From contig JBAIAA010000700.1 in NCBI GenBank assembly GCA_037893245.1, positions 310,001-374,000 of the forward strand: 64,000 nucleotides of DNA, read 5' to 3'. The position numbers and the translations under genes are program-made. Below the pieces are notes generated by a model that was given only the letters and a program-made list of their open reading frames with translations, was not told where the DNA came from and searched no databases. This document shows, in pieces, positions 8,416-41,159 of this stretch. Positions within the stretch are counted from its first letter, which is position 1; every line of letters starts with the position of its first letter. The stretch comes from Crossaster papposus. Its lineage: Eukaryota; Echinodermata; Asteroidea; Velatida; Solasteridae.

Positions 8416-8439
8416 TAGCCACACATACTTGTTCAGCAT

Positions 8440-9660
8440 ACAATTTGAGCCCCTAAGCACAATACCAACTTTTTGAGGAGCCCTCAAATTGTTCCCAAAT
8501 TAAGAACACCTCGTCTGATTGTGTGTGTGTGTGTGTTTTTTTGGTTTTTCCAGTATATATTTGCATATGACGTCACATCATGAATAGTCAGCAAAGGAAG
8601 CTAATAATCAATGTCATAGAAGTTCGGTTTAGTCATGAATGATTTTTTGTGATTCCAACAATCTAGTTAGTGAAAAATATATGTAAACTAACCCATTAAG
8701 GTTTCATCTATCTCGTCATGGATTTTTCTTATGGTGGAACAACAGTGGTGTCAGCAGTTATGATTCAAACTATTAAATATAATTGCATGACGAGTCACAA
8801 GTCATTTTGACTCGCAGGGTTACATGGAAATGCTACAAAATTTGAAACAGAAATTTGAAGAACTTCAGATGGAGTACTTGTACTTATTTTATTATGACAA
8901 AATACAAAACAAAACAATGACAAATTTCAAGTAACGAAAGTACTGAAATAAAAAATTACACTTATTGCACAGTAACATAAAACACATTAACAAAATTAAG
9001 GAAAAACGAGGTGTCCTTAAATTGGGTGAAGGGTTGCCTACGTGGGAGAGTTCAAGGAAAATTCCCAGAATTTTTGGTAAAAAGAACATTTTTAATAATA
9101 ATAATAATAATAAATCTTATAAAGCGCTGGTATCTAGAAAAAACTATTCACTGCGCGTGAATTTTTTTTGACATTGACATAATTATTGTAATTAGCAACA
9201 TTCATCTTTTAATTTGGGAATAATCAATCCTGCAAAGTCCTCCGATGCATCAACTTCCAAGTGCCCTCAATCCTGCAAAGTCCTGCATTTTACAAAGAGG
9301 ATTTTTGAGGATTTGGGTTGAAAAACTAACTGGTAACACTTTTTTTACACTAAAGATAATTATACCTTATTAAATTTGTGAGCTAAATATACAGGATTAG
9401 GTTTTGGTTAAAATTAACCCTCTCATAACTTGACAGTGTATGAGTCCTGTTGCTGCCTGCTCATCAGACCTGTTAAGGTAGTGCCTGCTAGCTGAAACTG
9501 TTATGCATGTCCTGATGCAATGTAGGATCCAGCTGTTCATAAAGCTGGTGTGCTGTGCCTGCTTAGCCATAGCCTGTCAATGCCATTGATGTGATGTTGT
9601 CCAGTCATGATGTTCAGCTTTATCCTAAGACACCAAGTCGTTTAGCTGAATGTTGAAAAT
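8440..9660. other. Intergenic DNA with simple repeats
   Basis: No exon supported. Contains a (TAA)n tract at about 9093-9112, a duplicated phrase ATCCTGCAAAGTCCT (about 9229 and 9270) and, at about 9023-9064, a stretch resembling one arm of the hairpin at 43668-43812 (shared words GGGTTGCC, GAGAGTTCAAGGAAA). Confidence 0.45.
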
Positions 9661-9664
9661 ACAA

Positions 9665-9930
9665 ACCACAACTTTGTGATTCAAATTTAAATTAGACTTG
9701 AGGGTTTGCATAGAATGAGAGGTTTGCAGTAACACTATGCGGTACATCTTTTTTGCGAGTTTGTGTGGTTCTAAAAAAGAACCGGAGTGAACGTGACGTT
9801 TCAAACAGTATGCTGACGAACAGAGTATACTGTTCTTTTCAGAACCACACAAGAGATTTACCACATGGTGTTAATGCAAACCTCCCATCTATTAATTTAA
9901 ATTTAACTAGAATTATCACAGGCACTGGCC
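9665..9930. mobile_element. Foldback element
   Basis: Outer arms TTCAAATTTAAATTAGAC...GGGTTTGCA (about 9680-9712) and TGCAAACCTCCC...TTTAAATTTAAC (about 9877-9908) are inverted. An inner inverted pair, TGTGTGGTTCTAAAAAAGAAC and GTTCTTTTCAGAACCACAC, lies at about 9761-9851. Non-coding. Confidence 0.55.
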
Positions 9931-10049
9931 TGGCCCACACAGGTTTTTAAGTGGGTATGTACGGCCAACATAGACTCGGGCAAATTTTTTATTTTTTTTG
10001 TTTGGGGGGGGGGGGGGATTTTTTGTCTTGATTGGTGTATCCCGTTGCT

Positions 10050-10178
10050 ATTTGTGACCTGCTTCCACAAAATCAAAGTAAAGTTGACAATTTGATATTT
10101 TTGATGGGCTATTTTAAATCATAACTTAATATAGCATAGCGCAACTTTACGCCATCTTTGTGGGAGCAGGTCACATTT
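10050..10178. mobile_element. Short hairpin MITE (TGTGACCTGC ends)
   Basis: The left end TGTGACCTGCTTCCACAAA (about 10053) and right end TTTGTGGGAGCAGGTCACA (about 10155-10174) are inverted, with further pairing AAAGTTG/CAACTTTA inside. A run of G lies just upstream (about 10005-10017). Typical of a tiny non-autonomous DNA transposon. Confidence 0.65.
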
Positions 10179-10352
10179 GTTGTTCAGGCAAAAAGACATA
10201 CATGTATGTAGATGTTAAATGTGACATACATGTATGTGAACTGTGGAGTATTTGTTGAATAGCAAAAGATTGATTCATTCAAAGCAAACCTTGAATATCT
10301 TGCAGGGCCACCTTCTTCTTATCACATTGAACTCCAGAAATGAAACTTGGAG

Positions 10353-10545
10353 TTCGTCGTACAATATTAGCCAATGATCATTGTAGTAAGTCCCACACAC
10401 TCCATGGATGTTGAAGTTTGTGCACAACTGCACCATACCAATTAGAACCCATTCAAAATCTGTAACAAAATAGGCTACTGTTGGGAGACTCATCGTGACA
10501 AAGTGGCACATTGAGGAGATTGCCATGAAATAGTTATAACTGGAT
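10353..10545. repeat. Dispersed direct repeat, copy 1
   Basis: About 190 bp starting ACAATATTAGCCAATGATCA and ending near ATAGTTATAACTGGAT. It recurs in the same orientation at 12492-12684 with only a few differences, a recent local duplication about 2.1 kb apart. Confidence 0.85.
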
Positions 10546-11252
10546 CAAACAGCTCAATTTGCCTCATGCGTCAACACAACTGAAACACATTTTCCCAACA
10601 CCTCAATTTGTCTGTTGTGACACACCCCGTACACATGACATACCTTAAAGAAATACTATACTGCTGTAGCTGAAATTAGATTTATTTTTCTAAAAGCATT
10701 CAAGATTGACTTGTTTGGCTTTTGAGCCTGTCCAAAAAAGGTAAAACAAAACCCACAAATGACACCGAGAAAAGTTTTCATTGAAACTGACAAAACGACG
10801 ATCATTATAATTAGTAATTTTAATTAAATTACCCTGTATCGTGGACGAATTTTTCGTTCGATGACACACCTAAACAAATCAATTAGGCAAAATGTTTGAA
10901 AAATTTGAGGAACTTTGGCTGGAGCACTTAAGATATAATATATGTTTATTTCCTACAAAAATATAACAACAGTTGTTTAGGGTATAATATCAGCTTCAAA
11001 GAACAATATGGCAAAAGAAGTGATCGAATATGAAGGTAAACATGCCGTCCACTCTAAAGATTGTTAGGAAGACGAAAATTAGAGTACGGTAAACCTGACA
11101 GAGGTGGAAATGAAGAATGTGCCGTGAAGGTAGACGGGGGTGATCGGGTAAATTTTATTCAGGTGGAGCCAGCGACCAGTGTCTGCATTCAAAAGATGAC
11201 AAACCAGCCTGATTACACACACCGAGAGCCGAGGTTGCTGCCACTGTTGAAA

Positions 11253-11270
11253 ATGTCGGTCAGAAGAGAG
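11253..11270 (+). CDS. Possible first coding exon (MSVRRE) with strong splice donor
   Basis: ATG TCG GTC AGA AGA GAG is followed directly by the strong donor GTAAGT at 11271, within a locally higher-GC stretch (11060-11270) that could be a 5' UTR. No downstream exon on this strand was recognised before the tandem array. Offered as a weak candidate only. Confidence 0.18.
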
Positions 11271-11289
11271 GTAAGTTGAGGACATGGTT

Positions 11290-12040
11290 GACAGATACGA
11301 GCTTTACAGGCTGACCAAGCATGCAACACTACACTATAAACGTAATGTAAACTAGTGAAGAATTTAGGATCGGTTTGGCAGACAAGCAGTTCCAAGTCAA
11401 AGTTTCTTATACTGATGAAAATAATGATCAAAAAGAATAACAGAAGGATGGTTATAATAACATTAAGTAAACCTAGAGCAGAAAGTGAGGACACGTGCTT
11501 GGAGGCTCGCGAGACCAAGTCCTCTTCTGTCAGGTTCACAACAAAAGTTTTTAGTTTAAGTAGATGTCTTTTACTGGACCAGATGAAGTCGACCAGATGA
11601 TTTTGGGGTTCACCTAGAACTTTTGTCTGGGGGAAAAAAACACTTATTTCTGGACGATTTTTGAAGCAGTGAGCTGGTTAGCAATCAGAATGTTTACTTC
11701 AAGAAAAAGGGAAGACGAAAGTCTCTTTTAGTTTCATTCAAGAAAGGAAACAATATAAACATGAAGGTTTATAAGATTTAAAAATCTCTGCATCCAAAAC
11801 TGGTTCCAATTGAGCAGACAAATTAACTGTACCTATGATCTGGGTTGTTTTTATCGAGATGAAAGGGTGGGGTGGAGTCATTAAACGCCTACAGAGTGCA
11901 TTACATGTCCTTGGTCAACAGTCAGTAGAACTCCATTCAAACAACACAATATACACATAATTAATGCTGAAAAGTACCGGTAATTTTTATTTTACAAGTA
12001 CCTCTATACAAGTTTTTGACATTAGCTGCTTTCAGTGTAT
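11290..12040. other. Intergenic DNA, nothing recognised
   Basis: No exon or clear repeat structure seen. Confidence 0.4.
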
Positions 12041-12041
12041 T

Positions 12042-12420
12042 TATATGTGACCCACTCTGCAAAAATGAATCTGATGGTCAGAAAAAGCAGGAAATAAGCT
12101 TTCATTTGATATAACTCTGTAGAACGTGTAATGCATTGGTCTTTTACAATTTTTGGAATTTGTTTTCTGTTATTCAAAATGTCTTCGAAAAGAAATGTAG
12201 ATTTACAGTTGTACTTGTAGTGCTCCATCAGATACTATAGTAAGAAAATGAAAAAACCTGTATTAAATTTAATTTAGGGATCAAAACAATATTTTCAATC
12301 GATCAGATCTGAAAATATAAATTTGTTTAAGAAAAAAAATCACTTTCGAGACAATAAACAGCCCTTTACGTAAAAAATGTATTTTATGACAGACTCATTT
12401 TTGCAGAGCGGGTCACATAT
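12042..12420. mobile_element. MITE with ATGTGACCC terminal inverted repeats
   Basis: The left end ATGTGACCCACTCTGCAAAA (from about 12044) and right end TTTTGCAGAGCGGGTCACAT (to about 12418) form near-perfect inverted repeats of about 30 bp around 375 bp of AT-rich non-coding DNA. Flanking TA on both sides would suit a mariner/Tc1-type target. Family assignment is inference. Confidence 0.7.
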
Positions 12421-12491
12421 TGAGAAAATAATTTCTCTACCCAACATTAGAGCTACAAAAATGCATGGGGACAAAATTGTCTAAACAGTAA

Positions 12492-12684
12492 ATTGTACAA
12501 TATTAGCCAATGATCATTGTAGTAAGTCCCACACACTACATGGATGTTGAAGTTTGTGCACAACTGGACCATACCAATTAGAACCCATTCAAAATCTGTA
12601 ACAAAATAGGCTACTGTTGGGAGACTCATCGTGACAAAGTGGCAAATTCAGGAGATTGCCATGAAATAGTTATAACTGGATTAT
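12492..12684. repeat. Dispersed direct repeat, copy 2
   Basis: Direct copy of 10353-10545; differences by eye include CTCCATGG to CTACATGG and ACTGCACC to ACTGGACC. It is followed by AT-rich DNA and a C-run of about 28 at 12818-12845. Confidence 0.85.
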
Positions 12685-12813
12685 AATACCCCAATTATCA
12701 GTACAATTGTACTCTTTAAAATAATATCCTTTTTAACCAAAATGTTCTTAAAAGGGCAAATCAGCTTTACTTCTACATTTGTAAATTATAAGTTTAGAAT
12801 AGTGCACAAATGT

Positions 12814-12846
<33 letters not shown>

Positions 12847-13645
12847 TCTAGGTATGTATGTCAAATAAATGTGTGTCTTAGTCCCAAGGTATTATAAACC
12901 CCAGTTAATAACAACGTTTAATTTAAAACCTTTATTCAAAGTATGTTTATATATGTCTACAGGACAGGGGTTTTAATTGGTGACAACAATTATATATGGT
13001 GCAAATGCAGCAGTCAGTAAAGTGAATTTCAGTTTTTTGTTTACATAGTTTCTAGTTTAAAGGTTTTTGGTGTGATTTGGATATAATGCACATCCTGGAG
13101 TTCTGGGTCAGCACGTCTTTATAGAAACATGTAATATAAAAAACATGTATTATCATTGCAAACATGATTAGTTTTTTTAAATGTACAGTACAGTAGGAAT
13201 GATCATAATCACGATAATAGCAAAGAAAATAACACTTGCAAGAGAGAATCATTGCACGCTGTGTAAACCAGTAATAAACATAGCTACCGTACATACATGT
13301 ACATGTATCAACTGTCCGGTAATTACATTTTTGTTGATAAACAAAACAATACTTTTTAGAACAATTGAGCAGTACATGCTAAAAACTGAAGTGTTGAATC
13401 CAATACATACAAGCCTACTAGCATGCGGTCAGGGACTACACTTTGAAAACATTTTTTAAATATTCAATGTAGCATTTTTATTTTTAAATCCAACTTTTAG
13501 ACTGTTATTTCAACGTTTTAAAGGCTGATTTGACAATTCCACGTACAAAAATGTTGAATTTGCACTTGACCAATTTGCACCGTTTTTCCCGTGGCATGTT
13601 TATCAGTCATCCATTTTAAATTAATAAAATGTCTATGCGAACTGG

Positions 13646-13881
13646 TTAACCAGTTTGCACCAGAGGAGGTATATACGCAAAGTTTTCCAAAAAAATTAAA
13701 ACGGATGACGCATCAACAAGTCATGAGCAAGGCTGGAAATGTCTGTCAGCAGCGAGCAAGGCTGTATAAATGAGTGGGTGTGCTTACCGGGACCATCGGC
13801 CTGAACCCGCCTCTGATCGAGTTTCGTTAAAAATAATCCCGCGTCAGTGATGTTAAAATAATCCCGGCAAGAATTGGTTAA
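13646..13881. mobile_element. TTAA-flanked MITE, CCAGTTYGCRCC family, inside monomer 1
   Basis: TTAA then CCAGTTTGCACC at the left, AGAATTGG then TTAA at the right. Internal words CGGATGACGCAT and GGGATTATTTTTAACG (inverse strand) match the free-standing copies at 38562-38774 and 51965-52179. A shorter derivative lies directly before it (about 13563-13649), sharing the TTAA. The same pair occurs in every monomer, for example 20577-20812. Confidence 0.7.
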
Positions 13882-13898
13882 ATTATTAAAATAACTCT

Positions 13899-14326
13899 TT
13901 AAAGGGGAACTTAACGATTTTTTTGTTTTCAATTTTGTGTGTTTTTGTGGCAGAGTATAGATTAAATAATAAATATTAAAAAAATTGGGTAAAGTAGTTA
14001 ATTAGGTGAGAAATACGTTTTTTAGAGGCATATTCTTTCTGCGTCTGCAAAGCCAGAAATAAAATCTCCGTCTGTATGTAAACATTATGACGTCATTCTG
14101 GGAGACGGTGGCACTACATACATGTATGCAGTGCCACCGTCTCCCAGAATGTAGTCATATGCTTACATACAGACTTTTCAGATTTCTGGCTGTGCAGGCG
14201 CAGAAAGAAAATGCCTCTAAAAAACGTATTTCTTACCTAATTTGTTTTATATTTATTATTTAATCTATACTCTGCCACAAAAACACAAAAAATTGAAAAA
14301 AAACAAAACTTTTAGTTCCCCTTTAA
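13899..14326. mobile_element. Palindromic TTAA-type MITE (420 bp) in array monomers 1-5
   Basis: TTAA at 13899-13902 and 14323-14326 flank an almost complete palindrome with ends AGGGGAACT/AGTTCCCCT. The arms of about 200 bp meet at CACTACATACATGTATGCAG. Corresponding copies sit in monomers 2-5. Monomer 6 has a single TTAA at 20831-20834 in the otherwise identical context ATAACTCTTTAAATGTTGG, which is the empty site and defines TTAA as the target duplication. TTAA targets are characteristic of piggyBac-type transposons. No transposase is encoded. Confidence 0.85.
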
Positions 14327-17300
14327 ATGTTGGAGTTATTATTTGAAATGTTGAATTAAACATTCAAAATGATTCAACTCTTTCAAAGAGTAGTCACTGA
14401 CGGTACACATGTAAGTGTTGGATTCAACACTTTACTTTTTAGTGTATAATTAAATTATTAATGATCAACAGAAATGCTGTTTAAGAAACATCTTTATAAA
14501 CGTCTTTAGAGAAACATTATAAAAAACATGTTTTATCATTGCAAACATGATTAGTTTTTTTAAATGTACAGTACAGTAGGAATGATCATAATCACGATAA
14601 TAGCAAAGAAAATAACACTTGCAAGAGAGAATCATTGCACGCTGTGTAAACCAGTAATAAACATAGCTACCGTACATACATGTACATGTATCAACTGTCC
14701 GGTAATTACATTTTTGTTTATAAACAAAACAATACTGTTTAGAACAATTGAGCAGTACATGCTAAAAACTGAAGTGTTGAATCCAATACATACAAGCCTA
14801 CTAGCATGCGGTCAGGGACTACACTTTGAAAACATTTTTTAAATATTAAGTCTAGCATTTTTATTTTTAAATCCAACATTTAGACTGTTAATTCAACGTT
14901 TTAAAGGCTGATTTGACAATTCCACGAAAAAAAATGTTGAATTTGCACTTAACCAGTTTGCACCGTTTTTCCCGTGGCATGTTTATCAGTCATCCATTTT
15001 AAATTAATAAAATGTCTATGCGAAAACCAGTTTGCACCCGAGGACGTATATACACGCAAAGTTTTCCAAAAAAATTAAAACGGATGACGCATCAACAAGT
15101 CATGAGCAAGGCTGGAAATGTCTGTCAGCAGCGAGCAAGGCTGTAAATGAGTGGGTGTGCTTACCGGGACCATCGGCCTGAACCCGCCTCTGATCAAGTT
15201 TCGTTAAAAATAATCCCGCGCCTCGGTCAGTGCTGTTAAAATAATCCCGGCAAGAATTGGTTACATTTTTGAAATAACTCTTTAAAGGGGAACTAAGATT
15301 TTCTTGTTTTCGATTTGTGTTTTTGTGGCAGATTAAATAATACATTTTAAAAAAATTGGGTAAATTAGTTAATTAGGTAAGAAATACGTTTTTTAGAGGC
15401 ATTTTCTTTCTGCGTCTGCAAAGCCAGAAATCTGAAAAGCGCGAAATAAAATCTCCGTCTGTATGTAAACATTATGGCGTCATTCAGGGAGACGGTGGCA
15501 CTGCATACATGTATGCAGTGCCACCGTCTCCCAGAATGTAGTCATATGCTTACATACAGACTTTTCAGATTTCTGGCTGTGCAGGCGCAGAAAGAAAATG
15601 CCTCTAAAAAACGTATTTCTTACCTAATTTGTTTTATATTTATTATTTAATCTATACTCTGCCACAAAAACACAAAAAATTGAAAAAAAACAAAACTTTT
15701 AGTTCCCCTTTAAATGTTGGAGTTATTATTTGAAATGTTGAATTAAACATTCAAAATGATTCAACTCTTTCAAAGAGTAGTCACTGACGGTACACATGTA
15801 AGTGTTGGATTCAACACTTTACTTTTTAGTGTATAATTAAATTATTAATGATCAACAGAAATGCTGTTTAAGAAACATCTTTATAAACGTCTTTAGAGAA
15901 ACATTATAAAAAACATGTTTTATCATTGCAAACATGATTAGTTTTTTTAAATGTACAGTACAGTAGGAATGATCATAATCACGATAATAGCAAAGAAAAT
16001 AACACTTGCAAGAGAGAATCATTGCACGCTGTGTAAACCAGTAATAAACATAGCTACCGTACATACATGTACATGTATCAACTGTCCGGTAATTACATTT
16101 TTGTTTATAAACAAAACAATACTGTTTAGAACAATTGAGCAGTACATGCTAAAAACTGAAGTGTTGAATCCAATACATACAAGCCTACTAGCATGCGGTC
16201 AGGGACTACACTTTGAAAACATTTTTTAAATATTAAGTCTAGCATTTTTATTTTTAAATCCAACATTTAGACTGTTAATTCAACGTTTTAAAGGCTGATT
16301 TGACAATTCCACGAAAAAAAATGTTGAATTTGCACTTAACCAGTTTGCACCGTTTTTCCCGTGGCATGTTTATCAGTCATCCATTTTAAATTAATAAAAT
16401 GTCTATGCGAAAACCAGTTTGCACCCGAGGACGTATATACACGCAAAGTTTTCCAAAAAAATTAAAACGGATGACGCATCAACAAGTCATGAGCAAGGCT
16501 GGAAATGTCTGTCAGCAGCGAGCAAGGCTGTAAATGAGTGGGTGTGCTTACCGGGACCATCGGCCTGAACCCGCCTCTGATCAAGTTTCGTTAAAAATAA
16601 TCCCGCGCCTCGGTCAGTGCTGTTAAAATAATCCCGGCAAGAATTGGTTACATTTTTGAAATAACTCTTTAAAGGGGAACTAAGATTTTCTTGTTTTCGA
16701 TTTGTGTTTTTGTGGCAGATTAAATAATACATTTTAAAAAAATTGGGTAAATTAGTTAATTAGGTAAGAAATACGTTTTTTAGAGGCATTTTCTTTCTGC
16801 GTCTGCAAAGCCAGAAATCTGAAAAGCGCGAAATAAAATCTCCGTCTGTATGTAAACATTATGGCGTCATTCAGGGAGACGGTGGCACTGCATACATGTA
16901 TGCAGTGCCACCGTCTCCCAGAATGTAGTCATATGCTTACATACAGACTTTTCAGATTTCTGGCTGTGCAGGCGCAGAAATAAAATGCCTCTAAAAAACG
17001 TATTTCTTACCTAATTTGTTTTATATTTATTATTTAATCTATACTCTGCCACAAAAACACAAAAAATTGAAAAAAAAACAAAACTTTTAGTTCCCCTTTA
17101 AATGTTGGAGTTATTATTTGAAATGTTGAATTAAACATTCAAAATGATTCAACTCTTTCAAAGAGTAGTCACTGACGGTACACATGTAAGTGTTGGATTC
17201 AACACTTTACTTTTTAGTGTATAATTAAATTATTAATGATCAACAGAAATGCTGTTTAAGAAACATCTTTATAAACGTCTTTAGAGAAACATTATAAAAA

Positions 17301-20300
17301 ACATGTTTTATCATTGCAAACATGATTAGTTTTTTTAAATGTACAGTACAGTAGGAATGATCATAATCACGATAATAGCAAAGAAAATAACACTTGCAAG
17401 AGAGAATCATTGCACGCTGTGTAAACCAGTAATAAACATAGCTACCGTACATACATGTACATGTATCAACTGTCCGGTAATTACATTTTTGTTTATAAAC
17501 AAAACAATACTGTTTAGAACAATTGAGCAGTACATGCTAAAAACTGAAGTGTTGAATCCAATACATACAAGCCTACTAGCATGCGGTCAGGGACTACACT
17601 TTGAAAACATTTTTTAAATATTAAGTCTAGCATTTTTATTTTTAAATCCAACATTTAGACTGTTAATTCAACGTTTTAAAGGCTGATTTGACAATTCCAC
17701 GAAAAAAAATGTTGAATTTGCACTTAACCAGTTTGCACCGTTTTTCCCGTGGCATGTTTATCAGTCATCCATTTTAAATTAATAAAATGTCTATGCGAAA
17801 ACCAGTTTGCACCCGAGGACGTATATACACGCAAAGTTTTCCAAAAAAATTAAAACGGATGACGCATCAACAAGTCATGAGCAAGGCTGGAAATGTCTGT
17901 CAGCAGCGAGCAAGGCTGTAAATGAGTGGGTGTGCTTACCGGGACCATCGGCCTGAACCCGCCTCTGATCAAGTTTCGTTAAAAATAATCCCGCGCCTCG
18001 GTCAGTGCTGTTAAAATAATCCCGGCAAGAATTGGTTACATTTTTGAAATAACTCTTTAAAGGGGAACTAAGATTTTCTTGTTTTCGATTTGTGTTTTTG
18101 TGGCAGATTAAATAATACATTTTAAAAAAATTGGGTAAATTAGTTAATTAGGTAAGAAATACGTTTTTTAGAGGCATTTTCTTTCTGCGTCTGCAAAGCC
18201 AGAAATCTGAAAAGCGCGAAATAAAATCTCCGTCTGTATGTAAACATTATGGCGTCATTCAGGGAGACGGTGGCACTGCATACATGTATGCAGTGCCACC
18301 GTCTCCCAGAATGTAGTCATATGCTTACATACAGACTTTTCAGATTTCTGGCTGTGCAGGCGCAGAAATAAAATGCCTCTAAAAAACGTATTTCTTACCT
18401 AATTTGTTTTATATTTATTATTTAATCTATACTCTGCCACAAAAACACAAAAAATTGAAAAAAAACAAAACTTTTAGTTCCCCTTTAAATGTTGGAGTTA
18501 TTATTTGAAATGTTGAATTAAACATTCAAAATGATTCAACTCTTTCAAAGAGTAGTCACTGACGGTACACATGTAAGTGTTGGATTCAACACTTTACTTT
18601 TTAGTGTATAATTAAATTATTAATGATCAACAGAAATGCTGTTTAAGAAACATCTTTATAAACGTCTTTAGAGAAACATTATAAAAAACATGTTTTATCA
18701 TTGCAAACATGATTAGTTTTTTTAAATGTACAGTACAGTAGGAATGATCATAATCACGATAATAGCAAAGAAAATAACACTTGCAAGAGAGAATCATTGC
18801 ACGCTGTGTAAACCAGTAATAAACATAGCTACCGTACATACATGTACATGTATCAACTGTCCGGTAATTACATTTTTGTTTATAAACAAAACAATACTGT
18901 TTAGAACAATTGAGCAGTACATGCTAAAAACTGAAGTGTTGAATCCAATACATACAAGCCTACTAGCATGCGGTCAGGGACTACACTTTGAAAACATTTT
19001 TTAAATATTAAGTCTAGCATTTTTATTTTTAAATCCAACATTTAGACTGTTAATTCAACGTTTTAAAGGCTGATTTGACAATTCCACGAAAAAAAATGTT
19101 GAATTTGCACTTAACCAGTTTGCACCGTTTTTCCCGTGGCATGTTTATCAGTCATCCATTTTAAATTAATAAAATGTCTATGCGAAAACCAGTTTGCACC
19201 CGAGGACGTATATACACGCAAAGTTTTCCAAAAAAATTAAAACGGATGACGCATCAACAAGTCATGAGCAAGGCTGGAAATGTCTGTCAGCAGCGAGCAA
19301 GGCTGTAAATGAGTGGGTGTGCTTACCGGGACCATCGGCCTGAACCCGCCTCTGATCAAGTTTCGTTAAAAATAATCCCGCGCCTCGGTCAGTGCTGTTA
19401 AAATAATCCCGGCAAGAATTGGTTACATTTTTGAAATAACTCTTTAAAGGGGAACTAAGATTTTCTTGTTTTCGATTTGTGTTTTTGTGGCAGATTAAAT
19501 AATACATTTTAAAAAAATTGGGTAAATTAGTTAATTAGGTAAGAAATACGTTTTTTAGAGGCATTTTCTTTCTGCGTCTGCAAAGCCAGAAATCTGAAAA
19601 GCGCGAAATAAAATCTCCGTCTGTATGTAAACATTATGGCGTCATTCAGGGAGACGGTGGCACTGCATACATGTATGCAGTGCCACCGTCTCCCAGAATG
19701 TAGTCATATGCTTACATACAGACTTTTCAGATTTCTGGCTGTGCAGGCGCAGAAATAAAATGCCTCTAAAAAACGTATTTCTTACCTAATTTGTTTTATA
19801 TTTATTATTTAATCTATACTCTGCCACAAAAACACAAAAAATTGAAAAAAAACAAAACTTTTAGTTCCCCTTTAAATGTTGGAGTTATTATTTGAAATGT
19901 TGAATTAAACATTCAAAATGATTCAACTCTTTCAAAGAGTAGTCACTGACGGTACACATGTAAGTGTTGGATTCAACACTTTACTTTTTAGTGTATAATT
20001 AAATTATTAATGATCAACAGAAATGCTGTTTAAGAAACATCTTTATAAACGTCTTTAGAGAAACATTATAAAAAACATGTTTTATCATTGCAAACATGAT
20101 TAGTTTTTTTAAATGTACAGTACAGTAGGAATGATCATAATCACGATAATAGCAAAGAAAATAACACTTGCAAGAGAGAATCATTGCACGCTGTGTAAAC
20201 CAGTAATAAACATAGCTACCGTACATACATGTACATGTATCAACTGTCCGGTAATTACATTTTTGTTTATAAACAAAACAATACTGTTTAGAACAATTGA

Positions 20301-21030
20301 GCAGTACATGCTAAAAACTGAAGTGTTGAATCCAATACATACAAGCCTACTAGCATGCGGTCAGGGACTACACTTTGAAAACATTTTTTAAATATTAAAT
20401 GTAGCATTTTTATTTTTAAATCCAACTTTTAGACTGTTAATTCAACGTTTTAAAGGCTGATTTGACAATTCCACGTACAAAAATGTTGAATTTGCACTTA
20501 ACCAGTTTGCACCGTTTTTCCCGTGGCATGTTTATCAGTCATCCATTTTAAATTAATAAAATGTCTATGCGAACTGGTTAACCAGTTTGCACCAGAGGAG
20601 GTATATACGCAAAGTTTTCCAAAAAAATTAAAACGGATGACGCATCAACAAGTCATGAGCAAGGCTGGAAATGTCTGTCAGCAGCGAGCAAGGCTGTATA
20701 AATGAGTGGGTGTGCTTACCGGGACCATCGGCCTGAACCCGCCTCTGATCGAGTTTCGTTAAAAATAATCCCGCGTCAGTGATGTTAAAATAATCCCGGC
20801 AAGAATTGGTTAAATTATTAAAATAACTCTTTAAATGTTGGAGTTATTATTTGAAATGTTGAATTAAACATTGAATTAAACATTCAAAGAGTAGGCACTG
20901 AAGGCACACATATGCAAGTGATGGATTCAACACTTTAATTTTTAGTGTATAATTAAATTATTGATGATCAACAGAAATGCTGTTTTAGAGTGTATAATTA
21001 AATTATTGATGATCAACAGAAATGCTGTTT

Positions 21031-21395
21031 TAGAACGTTTAAGTAAGTGCAACACATAAACAGGGCATATAACAAATGTCAACAATCTTAAAGAACAATA
21101 TATCTTTATATCGCAACACCTTAAAACTTGTACCGTACCAATGAAGCCTATACTCCATGAGAAAATGAGCTGCAGTGGAATCTCCAAAGAGAAACACTTA
21201 AATGTTTTATTTAAAAATGTCAACACAGATAAATATGATAGTTTACTTTGTAAACATCAAGAAGGTTTGAGTGAATAAAGGAGATTCTATCTTACAACTT
21301 ACTGATGAGCCTTTATATGTGGGTGTACATGTTGTACGTGTACATGCTGCACATGTCATTTCACGACAGAAGTTTTATTTAAATGTTTTTGCATA
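21031..21395. other. Spacer between array and transposon genes
   Basis: AT-rich, no gene recognised. Contains a palindromic GTACATGTTGTACGTGTACA tract near 21326-21345. Confidence 0.4.
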
Positions 21396-22990
21396 CTAAT
21401 TAACATATATCAGCATCTGCTGAAAATCAAGCACTACCCCACCATCAAGCACTACATCTTCAGTAAGTACTGCCTCATTGTCAAGCACTATTTCATCTAA
21501 TGTTTTTCCCTTAAACTCATGTAATTTTCCCTTTTCAAGAGCATCCAAAAGTTTCCCAACCTTACCCAGAATCAGGGCCTCATGAGGAAGTCTGTAATAT
21601 TCTCGGTGCACGGATACATCGTGACCGAGGTAGTTCGCTAGTTGCTCCAATTCATGTTTTTTCAAATTGAGCAACTGACTTATCGTCGCAACATGCTTCC
21701 CGAGTCTCGTTGAAGTGATTGTTTCCGGGTGTTCAGCTCCACACTTTTGCGCATGTAAGCGTAAACAATCAACCAGTATAAAATGGTTTTTACCCTCCAA
21801 AGTTCCATTCATGTACGAGTCATATTGTACATGGCATGCACCCAATGATTCTGCACTTGTTCTTGCAAAAACATAGGGATTTTCTGGGTTTATTCCACAA
21901 GCCTCACGTGATCCGAATAGGAGATCAACTGATTCCCTAACATTAGGAGTCAGTAGAAGTGGCACTCCTCTGTCTCTCTTTCCCCGTATGTACACTAGGC
22001 TAAAGTCTTTCAATTGAAAGTTGTTCAGAGAGGGACAGTGATTCCACAACATCAGTATTTGCATCCATTCCACTAATTTCTTTTTTCTGTATGTTTCAAC
22101 CTTCAAAAACTGTGTCTCTCCTGGTCGTCGTCGATTGTAAACAATCAGTTGTGCCAGGGTTAGCTTTGCCAATTGCGAGAAAGTTTCCCCAGTAATCCCA
22201 CACTGCTTTATTTGGCCCTTTATTTCACGCTCTTCATTGCACATATGTTTATGTAGCTTCATGATGTCCTTTGTAAGTGGAAGCCTTTTTGGCTCATTCC
22301 ACTTTGAGGTGGCTGCCTGCCGCAAAGCATAACCTGACACCCTTGTTGGCCATTCAAGCTGCATGAGTCTTTTAAACCCCGCACCATTGTTATCAGAAAT
22401 CCCAGTTTTAAGAGACTGTGCATCAATTATTTCAGCCATTCTATTCAGTATGTGTCCATGTTTTCTGGCTAGGGATGGAGTTGAAAACTGAAATGTGTGG
22501 TCATCAAAGTTTGAACACTTCAAGGTAGCCTCAACTACTGCATCAAAATTTCTGGGATTAACCAAGTCCCTTGCTGTACAGATATGGTCATCAAAGGTGC
22601 CTGCAGTGTTCAATAAGGCATACAAAAAAAATGTTATGTTGGCGTAACCCGACCGACCCTGAATTTTTTTTTTCAAGGGACGAAATTTAATGATTAAAAT
22701 CTATATAAATCTAGTTATAAATACGTTTGAAACCATTTCTGATCGTTTCTCAATGTTGTGTGTGTGGATTGTGTAAATAGTGAACCTGGACACGCTATCG
22801 TGTATCACTAACTGGCTTAAACAATTAGAAAACATAATTTTCATTGCTGGGATAAAAAATTAAATTACATAAAAAAAATCCCTACCTACCTTCCCCTATT
22901 TTTTTTGGGCCCGTTACGCCAACGTAATTTTTTTTATTATGCCTAAGCGGGCAGCTTCTCTCATTTTCTGAGATACATAGTGGTGGATGA
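21396..22990 (-). pseudogene. Truncated Crypton-like tyrosine recombinase copy, interrupted by a MITE
   Basis: A direct partial duplicate of the gene at 23152-25836, covering roughly its residues 376-755. The open frame 21396-22676 gives 426 residues, but about its first 21 come from the MITE at 22617-22943. Compared with the full copy, residues after VETYRKKK run in a shifted frame and return before SLVYIRGK, implying two compensating indels. About 20 extra residues lie before DCLRLHAQK. The motif TSTRLRKH reads TSTRLGKH (AGG to GGG), losing the likely second catalytic arginine. Box I (NRRRPGE) and the LGH...Y box are kept. The N-terminal fingers and C-terminal Myb-like end are absent. It is very unlikely to be an active recombinase. 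Confidence 0.8.
22617..22943. mobile_element. 327-bp MITE with GGCATA ends and TAA target duplication (PIF/Harbinger-like)
   Basis: The insertion is defined by comparison with the intact paralogue: TTCAATAAGCGGGCAG (near 24650) is here split into TTCAATAA + element + TAAGCGGGCAG. The TAA triplet is therefore duplicated at 22614-22616 and 22944-22946. Ends are GGCATAC...GTTGGCGTAAC and GTTACGCCAAC...TTATGCC. A 3-bp TAA (TWA) duplication is typical of PIF/Harbinger. A second copy lies at 35774-36076 in the opposite orientation. Confidence 0.88.
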
Positions 22991-23151
22991 CGAATTGTTA
23001 ATTGAATCATAAGGCTAAACATCACCACTAACTAACCCACCAACCCCCCTCTCCCCCTTCTCCTGCTTAAGCTTTTATATTATTATTTTGGGTGCATGTC
23101 ATGTACAATATGACTCCTACATGAATGAAACTTTGGAGGGTAAAAAACATT

Positions 23152-25836
23152 TTATACTGCAGCATTTTCTTTTTCCATCTTCTTTCTCTCAGCTTTGATG
23201 AGATTCCACACTTTTGACTTTATTTGGGAAATGGTTCTACCCGCCAAAGCGTTGTACTCTTCCTTTGCGTCCTTACAAATGTTATGTGTCGGAGTTTTGC
23301 CCAAAAGAAAACATTTTCTTAAGCCTTTGTGATTTGTTACAGCTGCAAGTTCCTCGGTAGTCCAAGCTGTTTTGGTACATGTGCGTTTAGAGTTCTTACA
23401 TTTTAGAACTGGGGCTACTGTTTTGCAACTTCCTGAGGCGATATTGGTTTCACACTCAGTTTTCTTGGCTGCTTCATCATCAAGCACTACCTTGTCATCA
23501 AGCACTACCGGTACCTCGTCATCAAGCACTACCCCACCATCAAGCACTACCCCACCATCCAGCACTACCTCATTGTCAAGCACTATTTCATCTAATGTTT
23601 TTCCCTTAAACTCATGTAATTTTCCCTTTTCAAGAGCATCCAAAAGTTTCCCAACCTTACCCAGAATCAGGGCCTCATGAGGAAGTCTGTAATATTCTCG
23701 GTGCACGGATACATCGTGACCGAGGTGGTTCGCTAGTTGCTCCAATTCATGTTTTTTCAAATTGAGCAACTGACTCATCGTCGCAACATGCTTCCTGAGT
23801 CTTGTTGAAGTGATTGTTTCCGGGTGTTCAGCTCCACACTTTTGCGCATGTAAGCGTAAACAATCACACCCCCTATGAGGTCCCAATGATTCTGCACTTG
23901 TTCTTGCAAAAACATATGGATTTTCTGGGTTTATTCCACAAGCCTCACGTGATCCGACTAGGAGATCAACTGATTCCCTAACATTAGGAGTCAGTAGAAG
24001 TGGCACTCCTCTGTTTCTCTTTCCCCGTATGTACACTAGGCTAAGTCTTTCGATTGAAAGTTGTTCAGAGAGGGACAGAGATTCCACAACATCAGTATTT
24101 GCATCCATTCCGCGTGATTTCTTTTTTTTGTATGTTTCAACCTTCAAAAACTGTGTCTCTCCTGGTCGTCGTCGATTGTAAACAATCAGTTGTGCCAGGG
24201 TTAGCTTTGCCAATTGCGAGAAAGTTTCCCCAGTAATCCCACACTGCTTTATTTGGCCCTTTATTTCACGCTCTTCATTGCACATATGTTTATGTAGCTT
24301 CATGATGTCCTTTGTAAGTGGAAGCCTTTTTGGCTCATTCCACTTTGAGGTGGCTGCCTGCCGCAAAGCATGACCTGACACCCTTGTTGGCCATTCAAGC
24401 TGCATGAGTCTTTTAAACCCCGCACCATTGTTATCAGAAATCCCAGTTTTAAGAGACTGTGCATCAATTATTTCAGCCATTCTATTCAGTATGTGTCCAT
24501 GTTTTCTGGCTAGGGATGGAGTTGAAAACTGAAATGTGTGGTCATCAAAGTTTGAACACTTCAAGGTAGCCTCAACTACTGCATCAAAATTTCTGGGATT
24601 AACCAAGTCCCTTGCTGTACAGATATGGTCATCAAAGGTGCGTGCAGTGTTCAATAAGCGGGCAGCTTCTCTCATTTTCTGAGACACATAGTGGTTGCTG
24701 TTATTTGTATGTCCAGCAGCTGCGGCATAGTGTTCGCCCAATTTTAAAATTAACCTATCATTCCTTGCTATGAGAGTTATTTCATCGTGCTCCATCCCAT
24801 TCAGGACATTTGCCAGGTATCTTGACACATTTTCTGACACAGGCATAAGAGCAGCCCCTGCCCTTAAATGTCTCGTCTTTTTGGGGTTTGGTTTATGACT
24901 GGGACACCTCTTTTTGTGGCGGTACAAAGCAGCCTTTTTGTACAGACCTCTACAATCAGAACAAAACATGTACTGTTTGATCTTATGTTTGTCGCCATAC
25001 TTTGGACGTTTATGGACAATAATCTCGCCCTTTTCACTACCACCTAAGACACGTTTGTTGTGCTCATAATCGCCTGCTTTTCTCAATTCAGCTATGAGAT
25101 CCCTTTTTTCTTTTGATTTTTTTTCAAGGGCAAGTATTTTTCCGATCTCTGTTTCCTCTGAGTGCTTGTCTTCCCAATGTTCTGTTATCTTCTTATAAGG
25201 CTTGTGACAAAAAAGGCAGTAGTGTCGTTTGTCCCACACCCTCTCTCCAGTTTTGGATGTGCTTGCTGATGACACAATCCAAGTTGTTGTTTTTTGTTGT
25301 ACCATTCGATTCTCCTTATTACTTCTTTTCCTTTTTTTGTTTGCCCCTTTCTGACCCTGCAATGCATGTTTACGTTTTTCGTTTGGTGGTTGTCCATGGT
25401 TTCCAATAGGTACACTACATACAAAGTGGTCATCTTCAGAAAAATCTGAGGCTTCAGAAAAATCACAGGATTCATTTTGCACACTTGAATTGGCCCCATT
25501 TTCTAAAGATCTAAATCCGGTCTTGTCACTGGGTACATCTGCTATCCCAGGAAGGTCATGTTCACTGACTGAAGTGTCACTGCTTTGTGAGTAATCTTCG
25601 CTCCACGAAGGTGGCTCATATACATCATCACTGGATTCATCTGTGTCAGAAAACATTTCTTCATCACTAAGAACAGGCCTATCTACCATTTCAGATGAAC
25701 TGATTATATCTAAAGTGTCCTCCACCTTCTCTACACGGACAGAATTATCCTCTACATATACACGTACTTGTACTTGGTCCACAGATCTGTTCTCTGGTTT
25801 GTCACTTTTCACATGGTTTGTGCATGTTGGTACATC
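23152..25836 (-). CDS. Crypton-like tyrosine recombinase (long open exon, 5' exon unknown)
   Basis: One open frame of 894 residues. The first ATG is not obvious: the frame runs upstream to a good acceptor (TTTATTTGTTTTATAG) and begins DVPTCTNHVKSD, so a 5' exon is probably missing. Counting from the GTG at 25812: acidic Ser/Asp/Glu-rich N-terminus (1-130), basic stretch (144-168), zinc-finger-like CLFCHK...H...H (199-217) and CSDC...H...C (284-303). The tyrosine-recombinase core has Arg in NRRRPGE (about 546-551), TSTRLRKH (668-675), LGHD (697-700) and Tyr in HREYYRLP (704-711). VLDGGV/VLDDEV repeats span 749-779, and a Myb/SANT-like C-terminus (about 812-870) has WTTEEL and VWNLIKAERKK. Tyrosine recombinase without reverse transcriptase, plus a DNA-binding C-terminus, points to a Crypton-type DNA transposon or a host gene derived from one. 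Looks intact here. Confidence 0.75.
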   Translation of the reverse strand, partial: DVPTCTNHVKSDKPENRSVDQVQVRVYVEDNSVRVEKVEDTLDIISSSEMVDRPVLSDEEMFSDTDESSDDVYEPPSWSEDYSQSSDTSVSEHDLPGIADVPSDKTGFRSLENGANSSVQNESCDFSEASDFSEDDHFVCSVPIGNHGQPPNEKRKHALQGQKGANKKRKRSNKENRMVQQKTTTWIVSSASTSKTGERVWDKRHYCLFCHKPYKKITEHWEDKHSEETEIGKILALEKKSKEKRDLIAELRKAGDYEHNKRVLGGSEKGEIIVHKRPKYGDKHKIKQYMFCSDCRGLYKKAALYRHKKRCPSHKPNPKKTRHLRAGAALMPVSENVSRYLANVLNGMEHDEITLIARNDRLILKLGEHYAAAAGHTNNSNHYVSQKMREAARLLNTARTFDDHICTARDLVNPRNFDAVVEATLKCSNFDDHTFQFSTPSLARKHGHILNRMAEIIDAQSLKTGISDNNGAGFKRLMQLEWPTRVSGHALRQAATSKWNEPKRLPLTKDIMKLHKHMCNEEREIKGQIKQCGITGETFSQLAKLTLAQLIVYNRRRPGETQFLKVETYKKKKSRGMDANTDVVESLSLSEQLSIERLSLVYIRGKRNRGVPLLLTPNVRESVDLLVGSREACGINPENPYVFARTSAESLGPHRGCDCLRLHAQKCGAEHPETITSTRLRKHVATMSQLLNLKKHELEQLANHLGHDVSVHREYYRLPHEALILGKVGKLLDALEKGKLHEFKGKTLDEIVLDNEVVLDGGVVLDGGVVLDDEVPVVLDDKVVLDDEAAKKTECETNIASGSCKTVAPVLKCKNSKRTCTKTAWTTEELAAVTNHKGLRKCFLLGKTPTHNICKDAKEEYNALAGRTISQIKSKVWNLIKAERKKMEKENAAV

Positions 25837-26093
25837 CTATAAAACAAATAAAAACAACAAAAAAATCATTTTAACATGTTGGGATGTAATCTAAGAAGTC
25901 CCAGCTTTTATGTCACTGCAGGGTACATCTGCTATCTTAGGAAGGTCATGTTCACAGACTGAAATGCCACTGCTTTGTGAGTCATCTTCGCTCCACGAAG
26001 GTGGCTCATATGTACATCATCACTGGATTCATCTTTGTCAGAAAACATGTCTTTATCACTAAGAACAGGCCTACATGTATCTATCATTTCAGA

Positions 26094-26792
26094 CAGGGGT
26101 GTGGAAGTGAATTTGGGCCCAGGAAAAAAAATGTGTATTCTAGATGCTCTGTGGTGCAATCTGAGGCATTTCCTGGGTAATTTCTTCTGACATTTTTTAT
26201 CAAATTTGCCAACATTTTCTTGGCATTTTTTATTGCATTATTTTTCTTCTGAGTAGAACTCATATTGAGAGCGGGGGATGACTGGCATCATGCCTGATCA
26301 AAAGGTGATCAACATCAAGACATCATAGCCTATTAAACAGTTCTCTGCAAAACCGCCTACTTTTATCAATTCCCTGTAGTGTACACATTGTAGGTTAAGA
26401 ATTCAGATAGTTCTGTAGAAACTTGAACTGAGGTAGGGACATTAAGATTTACTGTTCTGTGGTAACTTTGAACTCTCAGTGACCTGCCTAATGGTCACTT
26501 TAGTCTGAAGTCTTGCAATAACTCAGGGTCAAATGGGGGTCAATGTACATAGGATGATAGACAATGAATAAAGTATGCTGGAGAATTACAGAGAGGACTT
26601 TCTGTCTTATTTTGTTCAGTCAGCATTTGGAGCCTCTGTCCGCAAATGGGCCACCAAATTATTAATTTGGTGGCCCATTTTGTCGACTGAGTTGTTGTGG
26701 TCACATTGCCCACTGAGGCTCGAAATGCCGACTGAGGGAAATTATTTGGGGGGGGGGGGGGGATGACACACCTCCAAGTCGTTACGCCCCAG
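26094..26792. mobile_element. hAT-like non-autonomous element, 699 bp, 8-bp target duplication
   Basis: The flanks ATTTCAGA at 26086-26093 and 26793-26800 are an 8-bp duplication of exon sequence (CATTTCAGATGAACTG in the intact gene, near 25688). The ends CAGGGGTG and CGCCCCAG are approximately inverted, as in hAT transposons. The element includes a G-run next to its right end and the hairpin MITE at about 26615-26728. It was amplified with the array, so descendants lie in each 2.49-kb unit (from about 28579, 31068 and 33550). Confidence 0.8.
26615..26728. mobile_element. Foldback MITE inside the hAT-like element
   Basis: The outer inverted words CAGTCAGCATTTGGAGCCTC and GAGGCTCGAAATGCCGACTG enclose an inner palindrome GGGCCACCAAATT/AATTTGGTGGCCC (about 26648-26678). 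Co-amplified in every 2.49-kb unit. Confidence 0.7.
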
Positions 26793-27039
26793 ATTTCAGA
26801 TGAACTGATTATATCTAAAGTGTCCTCCACCTTCTCTACACGGACAAAATTATCCTCTACATATACACGTACTTGTACTTGGTCCACAGGTCTGTTCTCT
26901 GGTTTGTCACTTTTCACATGGTTTGTGCATGTTGGTACATCCTATAAAACAAATAAAAACAAAAACAAATCATTTTAACCTGTTGGATGTAATCTAAGAA
27001 GTCCCAGCTTTGATGTCACTGGGTACATCTGCTATCCCA

Positions 27040-27347
27040 CGCAGCTTTACCTTACATACGTACTGTGGACATTCCTTTGTCTTCGTGTAGTTAAAAAACG
27101 TTGACTAAATACTAATTTTTCTCGCTTCCCCAAAACAAATTTACCCTCAAAATTTGATTCTGGGCCTCTCCGCTGTTTCTTCTATCTTTTCTATAAATAA
27201 CCCTAACCCGTTTTTCCTCTAGCGTTCTTTTTCGGAAACTGAAAAACGGATTGTGGACCTGGGCGAACCCACAAACCGTAACCTCTTCCCGCATCGTGTG
27301 GACCTATTTTGTTCGGAGGTCCACAGTGCGTATGCAAGACTAACTCA
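27040..27347. mobile_element. 308-bp TIR element in duplicated exon (first of seven copies)
   Basis: The uninterrupted context CTATCCCAGGAAGGTCATG (25544-25562) is split into CTATCCCA + insert + GGAAGGTCATG. Slightly inside each end are the inverted repeats CATACGTACTGTGGAC and GTCCACAGTGCGTATG. Copies recur at about 27725-28037, 29527-29838, 30215-30529, 32015-32323, 32697-33009 and 34492-34805. Non-coding; superfamily not determined. Confidence 0.75.
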
Positions 27348-33300: not shown

Positions 33301-35222
33301 CAAATAAAAACAAAAACAAAATCATTTTAACCTGTTGGGATGTAATCTAAGAAGTCCCAGCTTTTATGTCACTGCAGGGTACATCTGCTATCTTAGGAAA
33401 GTCATGTTCACAGACTGAAATGCCACTGCTTTGTGAGTCATCTTCGCTCCACGAAGGTGGCTCATATGTACATCATCACTGGATTCATCTTTGTCAGAAA
33501 ACATGTCTTTATCACTAAGAACAGGCCTACATGTATCTATCATTTCAGAAAGGGGTGTGGAAGTGAATTTGGGCCAAGGAAAAAAATGTGTATTATAGAT
33601 GCTCTGTGGTGCAATCTGAGGCATTTCCTGGGTACTTTCTTCTGACATTTTTTATCAAATTTGCCAACATTTTCTTGGCATTTGTTATTGCATTATTTTT
33701 CTTCCGAGTAGAACTCATATTGAGAGCAGGGGATGACTGGCATCATGCCTGATCAAAAGGTGATCAACATCAAGACATCATAGCCTATTAAACAGTTCTC
33801 TGCAAAACGGCCTACTTTTATCAATTCCCTGTAGTGTACACATTGTAGGTTAAGAATTCAGATAGTTCTGTAGAAACTTGAACTGAGGTAGGGACATTAA
33901 GATTTACTGTTCTGTGGTAACTTTGAACTCTCAGTGACCTGCCTAATGGTCACTTTAGTCTGAAGTCTTGCAATAACTCAGGGTCAAATGGGGGTCAATG
34001 TACATAGGATGATAGACAATGAATAAAGTATGCTGGAGAATTACAGAGAGGACTTTCTGTCTTATTTTGTTCAGTCAGCATTTGGAGCCTCTGTCCGCAA
34101 ATGGGCCACCAAATTATTAATTTGGTGGCCCATTTTGTCGACTGAGTTGTTGTGGTCACATTGCCCACTGAGGCTCGAAATGCCGACTGAGGGAAATTAC
34201 TTGGGGGGGGGGTTGACACACCTCCAAGTCGCTACGCCCCAGATTTCAGATGAACTGATTATATCTAAAGTGTCCTCAACCTTCTCTACACGGACAAAAT
34301 TATCCTCTACATATACACGTACTTGTACTTGGTCCACAGGTCTGTTCTCTGGTTTGTCACTTTTCACATTGTTTGTGCATGTTGGTACATCCTATAAAAC
34401 AAATAAAAACAAAAACAAATCATTTTAACCTGTTGGATGTAATCTAAGAAGTCTCAGCTTTGATGTCACTGCAGGGTACATCTGCTATCCCACGCAGCTT
34501 TACCTTACATACGTACTGTGGACATTCCTTTGTCTTCGTGTAGTTAAAAAAACGTTGACTAAATACAATTTTTTCTCGATTCCCCAAAACAAATTTACCC
34601 TCAAAATTTGATTCTGGGCCTCTCCGCTGTTTCTTCTATCTTTTCTATATATATAACCCTAACCCGTTTTTCCTCTAGCGTTCTTTTTCGGAAACTGAAA
34701 AACGGATTGTGGACCTGGGCGAGTCCACAAACCGTAACCTCTTCCCGCATCGTGTGGACCTATTTTGTTCGGAGGTCCACAGTGCGTATGCAAGACTAAC
34801 TCAGGAAGGTCATGTTCACTGACTGAAGTGTCACTGCTTTGTGAGTCATCTTCGCTCCACGAAGGTGGCTCATATACATCATCACTGGATTCATCTGTCA
34901 GAAAAAAATTCTTCATCACTAAGAACAGGCCTATCTACCATTTCAGATGAACTGATTATATCTAAAGTGTCCTCCACCTTCTCTACACGGACAAAATTAT
35001 CCTCTACATATACACGTACTTGTACTTGGTTCACAGATCTGTTCTCTGGTTTGTCACTTTTCACATGGTTTGTGCATGTTGGTACATCCTATAAAACAAA
35101 TAAAAACAAAAACAAAATCATTTTAACCTGTTGGGATGTAAGCTTATATTGGCTTAAAGGTAGGATACACCATTTGAAAAACATAATTGTACTTCAAATT
35201 TAAATGTGTATAATTGTCCTAC

Positions 35223-35418
35223 CTTGTGTCTGAAGTTGGTGATCTTCCTAGTGCATTTGTGCCGTGCCCTCGACGTGCCCCAGGGGTGGTAGTGCATGTA
35301 ACACTCCTTGCAGTAGCTCAACTTGCAGTCCAGACAGCTATTGGTGGCATCCAATGGGGGTCGGACCTTACACAGGCCACAGGGGATGCTGATAGTCTTC
35401 TTGGCTGTTAGCTTGAAC
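35223..35418 (-). CDS. B-box exon of a TRIM36/TRIM46-type E3 ligase gene
   Basis: A 196-nt exon on the minus strand with acceptor CCCCTCGCAG and donor AAG|GTAGGA. It encodes FKLTAKKTISIPCGLCKVRP, then a cysteine/histidine-rich segment with CLDCKLSYCKECYMHYHPWG and ends ITNFRHK. The HPWGT-x-RAxH signature and the C-x2-C...C-x2-C...C-x2-C spacing match the first B-box of human TRIM46/TRIM36 (known as RING-B-box-coiled-coil ligases associated with microtubules). I recognise neither the upstream RING exons nor the following B-box 2 exon. The next exon would have to lie beyond the transposon arrays, so those arrays may sit in an intron of this gene, or the exon is a stranded fragment. Confidence 0.75.
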
Positions 35419-41152: not shown

Positions 41153-41159
41153 TTTTGTT

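Follow-up and report, generated by a model that had tools for sequence, protein, structure and literature searches.

A stretch of 64,000 nucleotides from the starfish Crossaster papposus (C700:310001-374000, strand +, in an assembly of 1,023,315,904 bases and 1841 contigs), here called the window, contains an array of six tandem monomers, five of which carry a miniature inverted-repeat transposable element (MITE) bounded by TTAA. The array is likely, with a probability of roughly 0.7, to be a tandem-repeat module inside a giant dispersed transposon. Three full copies of this element, on C700, C599 and C1097, underlie all between-copy comparisons. When 30 kb around the C599 and C1097 arrays were aligned to the window, homology reached far past the array (Table 1). 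The element started at one base in all three copies (window 8425-8426, ATACTTGTTCAGC) and ended at one base in all three (window 41538, ...GACAAACACA). The left flanks (8.4, 7.6 and 7.5 kb) shared only one 48-base match at a threshold of E 1e-5, between C700 and C599. The only match among the right flanks (22.5 kb in C700 and 1.5 kb in the other two) was a 205-base dispersed repeat, which adjoins the C1097 element but in C700 is inverted and 22 kb distant from the element. Allelic haplotigs of a single locus were considered and ruled out, since the flanks on both sides differ in all three.

The 26-bp left terminus was found at four places in the genome, namely the three elements and C798, where the match covers only 92 bp; the right terminus (last 30 bp) was found at 12. 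No match in either search contained a mismatch, although three were allowed, and reversed-pattern controls gave none. Substitutions in four element segments outside the first array (about 3209 bases, gaps excluded; one segment overlaps the partial second recombinase frame) numbered 12 between C700 and C1097, 23 between C700 and C599 and 19 between C1097 and C599, that is 0.4-0.7%. Judged by its sequence, the segment has the character of a mobile element that dispersed recently.

Table 1. Features of the element and its copies (window numbering unless a contig is named)
Feature	Position	Strand	Description
Probable dispersed mobile element	8425..41538		33,114 bp; contains the first array; common sharp ends and unrelated flanks at three places
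Element copy 2	C599:2063797-2088427	-	24,631 bp
Element copy 3	C1097:194481-218515	+	24,036 bp
Left terminal segment	8425..8516	+	~92 bp, ATACTTGTTCAGC...; inverted repeat ACAATTTGAG/CTCAAATTGT
Right terminal segment	41439..41538	+	100 bp; palindrome TTGAGGAGCTCCTCAA, two AACTCCTCG motifs, end ...GACAAACACA
First tandem array	13113..20988	+	first monomer, four middle, last (empty)
First monomer	13113..14462	+	filled; left edge is non-array element sequence
Four middle monomers	14463..20011	+	filled, mutually near identical
Last monomer	20012..20988	+	empty TTAA at 20831-20834
TTAA MITE 1, first monomer	13900..14326	+	
TTAA MITE 1, monomer 2	15283..15713	+	
TTAA MITE 1, monomer 3	16670..17101	+	
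TTAA MITE 1, monomer 4	18058..18488	+	
TTAA MITE 1, monomer 5	19445..19875	+	
Dispersed ~240-bp repeat	20578..20814		within each monomer; scored copies elsewhere mostly 81-86% identical
Partial second recombinase frame	21399..22700	-	434 codons; G for arginine of LRKH box
Open frame, probable tyrosine recombinase	23155..25836	-	894 codons (first methionine at codon 50)
Second internal tandem array	25542..35144		~2.49-kb period; repeats 5' part of recombinase frame and neighbouring DNA

Target sites and termini

Relatives of two target sites (C700 and C599) apparently lacking the element were found, and these support insertion. The joined C700 flanks matched one continuous stretch of C304 (84% over 883 bp), and on C630 and C271 both flanks were present at 85-90%, 0.7-0.9 kb apart, indicating that the two flanks belong together. 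The sequence near the C700 junction is CATGTACA-rich and the exact insertion site is unreadable. Both C599 flanks were present on C45 at 96-100%, approximately 600 bp apart as against 24.6 kb in C599. On C45 they are separated by different repeat DNA, some of which recurs as the right flank of the C1097 insertion.

Junctions were CA-rich at all three insertions. The left flanks end in CACAC (C700 and C1097) or ACGC (C599) and the right end of the element reads ACACA; junction bases were thus ACACA on both sides in C700 and C1097 and ACGCA/ACACA in C599, an agreement that may be due to chance as the targets are CA-rich. The two ends have in common a subterminal palindromic motif (19 bp, 95% identical), TTGAGGAGCCCTCAA on the left and TTGAGGAGCTCCTCAA on the right, and a TG microsatellite lies approximately 100 bp inside the left end. 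The subterminal palindromic motifs and the two AACTCCTCG copies at the right end may represent protein-binding sites. The second internal array seems longer in the window than in C599, and about half of the 8.5-kb length difference between these copies remains after the first array is accounted for.

Recombinase frames and class of the element

The 894-codon frame probably encodes a tyrosine recombinase. In an alignment of the window frame with five relatives taken from those listed, the RxRxGE, GKR, LRK, GHD and H..YY columns were invariant in 6/6 frames; we take these to be the tyrosine-recombinase pattern, and candidate R, R, H and Y columns were assigned on that presumption. Two C2H2-like stretches lie N-terminal to the conserved region and a 143-residue tail follows it. 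Pfam Phage_integrase was matched by two of the six members, the window protein not among them, below the curated cut-off (best E 5.7e-5). The frame is open in C700 and C599 and broken in C1097. Between C700 and C599 it differed at 6 of 2685 bases, three changes being synonymous and three not, compared with 23 of 3209 in the four other element segments.

Related frames occur elsewhere in the genome, with at least 54 matches listed (51 of 1416 candidates scored). Among the matches listed, 30 rows correspond to a 685-codon frame at 35-36% identity, 29 of them stop-free within the match. Many members of this high-copy family have equal score (e.g. C474:1090479-1092227, C162:524062-525810 and C278:1025195-1026943), and on these three contigs pairs of the frame lie 12.7-13.9 kb apart, as if the elements were tandem. 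A different recombinase frame, of 725 codons and 39% identity, is located at C599:2112546-2114642, approximately 24 kb from the element copy.

Taken together, the element resembles a giant Crypton whose internal arrays vary, and in its working it is comparable to a Crypton or an integrative element; the likeness is drawn from the published description, and Crypton membership is not proven. PMC3212892 lists animal Cryptons from chordates, echinoderms, hemichordates, molluscs, arthropods and cnidarians, and describes them as having no C-terminal domain, whereas 143 residues follow the conserved region here. Cryptons encode a tyrosine recombinase with catalytic R-H-R-Y and have short (4-6 bp) terminal direct repeats. 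Apparent similarities to Cryptons are the recombinase-like frame, the lack of terminal inverted repeats, the short identical, ACACA-like bases at both junctions, which may be due to chance, and the lack of a clear target duplication. The size of 24-33 kb, the N-terminal C2H2-like stretches, the C-terminal tail and the two internal tandem arrays set the element apart from them.

A second system for comparison is the Starship, in which the captain recombinase sits at one end of the element. The frame described here does not lie at an element end, and no Pfam match to the captain domain DUF3435 was obtained, with E up to 0.01 for the whole protein and up to 1 for its core. Starships (PMC10175614) also span tens of kilobases, encode a tyrosine recombinase and are present in few copies per genome; they are fungal and possess a DUF3435 recombinase and accessory genes, whereas the element in the window has an interior recombinase and mostly repeat content.

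Several observations weigh against interpretation of the segment as a transposon. There are few copies, with only three full elements. Nine of the 12 right-terminus places lie outside the elements (C853, C641, C444, C37, C18, C157, C237, C409 and C787), and the four examined (C853, C641, C444 and C37) are all inside another dispersed repeat with flanks matching on both sides, an arrangement that a simple model does not explain. Beyond short matches and the subterminal motif no inverted repeat was found at the termini, and at none of the three insertions could a target duplication be told apart from the CA-rich target, so transposition is read from the ends and the empty sites alone. None of the related sites is a clean empty allele: that on C304 is a diverged paralog and that on C45 holds another insert of approximately 590 bp. 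The recombinase gene is interior, at 14.7-17.4 kb from the left end, and could therefore be cargo and not the mobilizer; three synonymous against three nonsynonymous changes are no proof of selection. Comparison of the window protein with Pfam gave no matches at E up to 0.01, including none that would name a family for the 143-residue tail, and its core matched only an unrelated EF-hand model (E 0.35). No matches to PHROGs or NCBIfam were obtained at 0.1, and in the PDB the protein matched only an unrelated chain at 0.97 and the recombinase family profile only unrelated chains at 0.26 or worse. A single-sequence structure model of the core had a mean predicted local distance difference test score (pLDDT) of 33.9 and was not used for fold search.

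The three segments might alternatively be segmental duplications generated by a non-transposon route, for example from circular DNA re-inserted at CA microsatellites, with the recombinase frames as passengers. The presence of only three full copies, the CA-rich junctions at every insertion and the lack of inverted repeats and of a separable target duplication are consistent with such a route. It is nevertheless considered unlikely, as the ends are identical to the base in all three copies and the left end occurs alone at C798, the 19-bp subterminal motif is common to both ends, and the recombinase frame is open with few changes in two copies. Less probable still, and by some distance, is a Helentron (rolling-circle) element that carries satellite-like repeats, similar to the HINE elements of the oyster Crassostrea gigas. 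The subterminal repeat at both ends, the palindrome near the right end and the TG microsatellite inside the left end are in keeping with a Helentron, and in PMC7492417 HINE elements likewise have subterminal repeats and a right-end palindrome and carry, within a dispersed transposon, short arrays of a few satellite DNA-like monomers in varying copy number. That source describes HINE elements as non-autonomous, with monomers of 140-180 bp and a preference for oligo-T targets, whereas the element in the window has a 1.39-kb monomer holding a MITE, a recombinase frame and CA-rich targets at 3/3 insertions. Moreover, its large frame is recombinase-like, and Rep/helicase was absent from the nine frames scanned among the 12 in the element that reach 110 codons, no genome-wide partner search having been made; Pfam named no other mobile-element gene in these nine frames.

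Organization and history of the monomer array

The initial annotation described a six-monomer array whose unit is a nest of MITEs, with five monomers carrying a palindromic TTAA-MITE and an edge monomer retaining the unfilled TTAA in the same context; the six monomers and both states of the TTAA site were confirmed, and the monomer does hold nested repeat pieces. The left parts of the monomers begin at 13113, 14500, 15887, 17275, 18662 and 20049, giving a period of 1387-1388 bp, and are 783-787 bp long with 96.5-100% identity to that of the last monomer. Those of the four middle monomers are 100% identical, and the first monomer is distinct from monomers 2-5. In addition to the MITE (MITE 1), the nest comprises the ~240-bp dispersed repeat and a monomer segment that recurs in inverted and diverged form. 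MITE 1 shows the traits of a TTAA MITE, being a near-palindrome of 427-432 bp in monomers 1-5, with arms 75-81% alike and TTAA at both ends in 5/5 copies. In monomer 6 the TTAA is perfect and free of any scar, with left context as in the filled monomers. MITE 1 belongs to a dispersed family: of 40 scored copies (from 228 candidates), 32 lie elsewhere than in the three arrays, with 79-85% identity. PMC2872659 describes the CMITE elements of Acropora, piggyBac-like MITEs that likewise occur in tandem arrays; there the full-sized MITE is the tandem unit, whereas MITE 1 is a passenger in a larger monomer.

A 501-bp query avoiding the dispersed repeat identified 11 full-length monomers at 98-100% in the 1.02-Gb assembly (35/35 candidates scored), of which six are on C700, three on C599 and two on C1097 as assembled, all inside the three element copies. 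The same search gave no full-length monomer outside the elements, and hence no single monomers at other loci of the kind that the initial annotation proposed looking for; the next best match was 75% over 133 bp. A broader monomer search was scored for the best 40 of 3044 candidates. Since the arrays on C599 and C1097 are independent, the array is not the assembler's repetition of one place. The term satellite is nevertheless too strong for three short arrays, which are neither long nor abundant in the genome.

Filled and empty monomers number 5+1 in C700, 2+1 in C599 and 1+1 in C1097, corresponding to four, one and no middle monomers. These differing numbers bear out the proposal that filled monomers were amplified after MITE insertion, and insertion before amplification is favoured. 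First-type and last-type monomers are common to all three copies and the middle type to two (C700 and C599). As monomer types are shared among copies, the duplication and the MITE insertion predate the spread of the element and happened elsewhere and earlier, and the suggestion that the birth of a satellite is captured at the window locus was not upheld. A monomer tree, proposed as a means of ordering events, would mislead, as different segments join different monomer pairs. In columns 1-353 of the C700 alignment the middle and last monomers are identical (0/349) and the first differs from both at five positions. In columns 354-800 of C700 the first and last differ at 3/434, and the middle differs from the first at 16 and from the last at 13 of 426; across all copies the corresponding values are 1-3 of 434-440 and 13-16 of 426-428. 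Right of the MITE, first and middle are identical in C700 (0/159) and 99.4% identical over a longer stretch in C599, and the last differs in C700 at 11/153 plus indels. Fisher tests of the segment contrasts on C700 counts gave p values of 5e-5, 9e-3, 4e-4 and 0.04 (four tests, uncorrected). In the left 349 columns of C599, substitutions gave no grouping (three between middle and last, three between first and last, four between first and middle), and a middle-last grouping was indicated only by a shared 4-base gap and two flanking bases. The differing segment trees mean that the monomers are mosaics, which a single tree cannot order.

The four middle MITE copies of C700 differ by one substitution and one A-run indel. 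The first and middle MITEs differ by 11-12/415 substitutions in C700 and 19/431 in C599, plus indels. Two separate insertions, into the first and the middle monomers, were considered and dropped, as the apparent identity of 91% is largely due to gaps and the substitutions number only 11/415. A single insertion is enough for both first and middle monomers, although it is not proven.

The last monomer is empty in 3/3 element copies and the MITE is present in every first and middle monomer. That it was never filled is the simplest interpretation, as one ancestral state suffices, and is considered about three times as probable as excision. Precise excision is a habit of piggyBac-type TTAA elements, and a last monomer once filled could have lost its MITE in this way. 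To the left of the site the first and last monomers are near identical over approximately 430 bp (1-3 differences in ~434), which suggests a very recent tract, and to the right the first 38 bp of monomer 6 are identical to monomer 1 before divergence sets in, with 11/115 differences beyond them; at that local rate, 38 clean bases have p ~0.02. These bases lend weak support to a conversion tract having crossed the site, for which excision or loss from a heteroduplex would be required, and hint that it formed when the MITE was already old, given the first-middle MITE divergence (11/415 in C700, 19/431 in C599). A tract ending at the heterology would however explain these data in large part, excision intermediates were not observed, and the emptiness of all three last monomers calls for no separate event; loss by excision is therefore held to be improbable, if a somewhat better candidate than the remaining alternative. 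This is a newborn satellite bound to its locus, in which the MITE hit one of two units and the filled one was then multiplied, so that the empty unit at the edge is the original. The unit order, the homogeneity of the middle monomers and the perfect empty TTAA fit such a course. The part concerning the locus is refuted, as the array sits within an element present at three sites and the order of events is common to its copies, not local; furthermore, the C700 middle monomers are no plain copies of the first, differing at 16/426 right of column 353 and at 11-12/415 in the MITE, yet at 0/159 right of the MITE. This alternative is accordingly given little credence.

The following course of events is proposed for the array as part of a giant transposon, the favoured reading. 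A unit of ~970 bp in an ancestral element would first have been duplicated, and the MITE would then have inserted into the TTAA of the upstream unit. Filled monomers would have multiplied, shrunk in number and swapped segments by unequal crossing-over and gene conversion. The whole element would subsequently have moved as one piece into CA-rich targets, probably by means of its own tyrosine recombinase and via a circle in which the ACACA end is joined to the TACTTG end. Copy number would finally have changed per insertion, with a gain to four middle units in C700 and a loss in C1097. Substitution counts weakly suggest that C700 and C1097 are sister copies. If so, at least one middle unit was already present in their ancestor, with three added in C700 and none retained in C1097; the identical left parts and near-identical MITEs of the middle monomers point to a recent gain in C700.

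The C1097 element carries a second TTAA MITE of 387 bp (TTAAAGGTAGTATACACC...), with six copies full and one partial; when one full copy served as query, the remaining five were 88-98% identical to it. None was found in the C700 element or in 30 kb at C599, and a distant relative lies in the window outside the element (62803-63130). Three full copies were found in 22 other loci (75.4 kb), which were selected for holding MITE 1 and so are not a random sample; against these, the excess in C1097 has p ~0.008 (binomial, 6 vs 3), or 5e-4 if the background is taken as known. In the first unit of C1097, MITE 1 has one of the six copies exactly at each of its TTAA ends, a placement with a chance of ~0.001 if TTAA sites are equal targets (22.5 kb scanned; 165 sites, 149 with inserts masked).

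Surrounding features and implications

Pfam identified DM10-domain exons of a host gene to the left of the element (window 1433-2508, +) and an EF-hand protein gene of the host to the right (52308-52871, -). Minisatellites are present at 57919-58597 (22-bp unit x31), 61703-61968 (11-bp unit x24) and 37606-37771 (18-bp unit x9). No RNA family was matched at the gathering threshold when 4227 families were compared with window positions 8000-42000. Elsewhere in the assembly, contig C8 (>5.2 Mb) contains bacterial-type cytochrome bo oxidase genes, with a best relative at 71% in a Pandoraea metagenome-assembled genome, and may derive from a symbiont or contaminant. Contig C1841 is mitochondrial-looking, with 13 in-frame TGA codons in COX1, as known from mitochondria of animals and some other eukaryotes.

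A broader interpretation is offered tentatively. The copies may belong to a young family of tyrosine-recombinase transposons of giant size (24-33 kb), derived from Crypton-like elements and corresponding to the Starships of fungi. The two internal arrays would be variable modules that build, edit and export satellite-like repeats, and an extrachromosomal or open-chromatin stage would attract TTAA MITEs. Most eukaryotic transposable elements are under 10 kb according to PMC10175614, and the present element points to tyrosine-recombinase elements far above this size. No giant animal element of such kind was found in the literature as surveyed by titles and abstract starts, although one may still have been described in print. 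Transposons are regarded as a source of satellites, but the steps are rarely observed. Three young copies with their own repeat numbers would amount to replicate experiments on one starting array, in which unit gain, loss and exchange can be ordered along the element's own tree.

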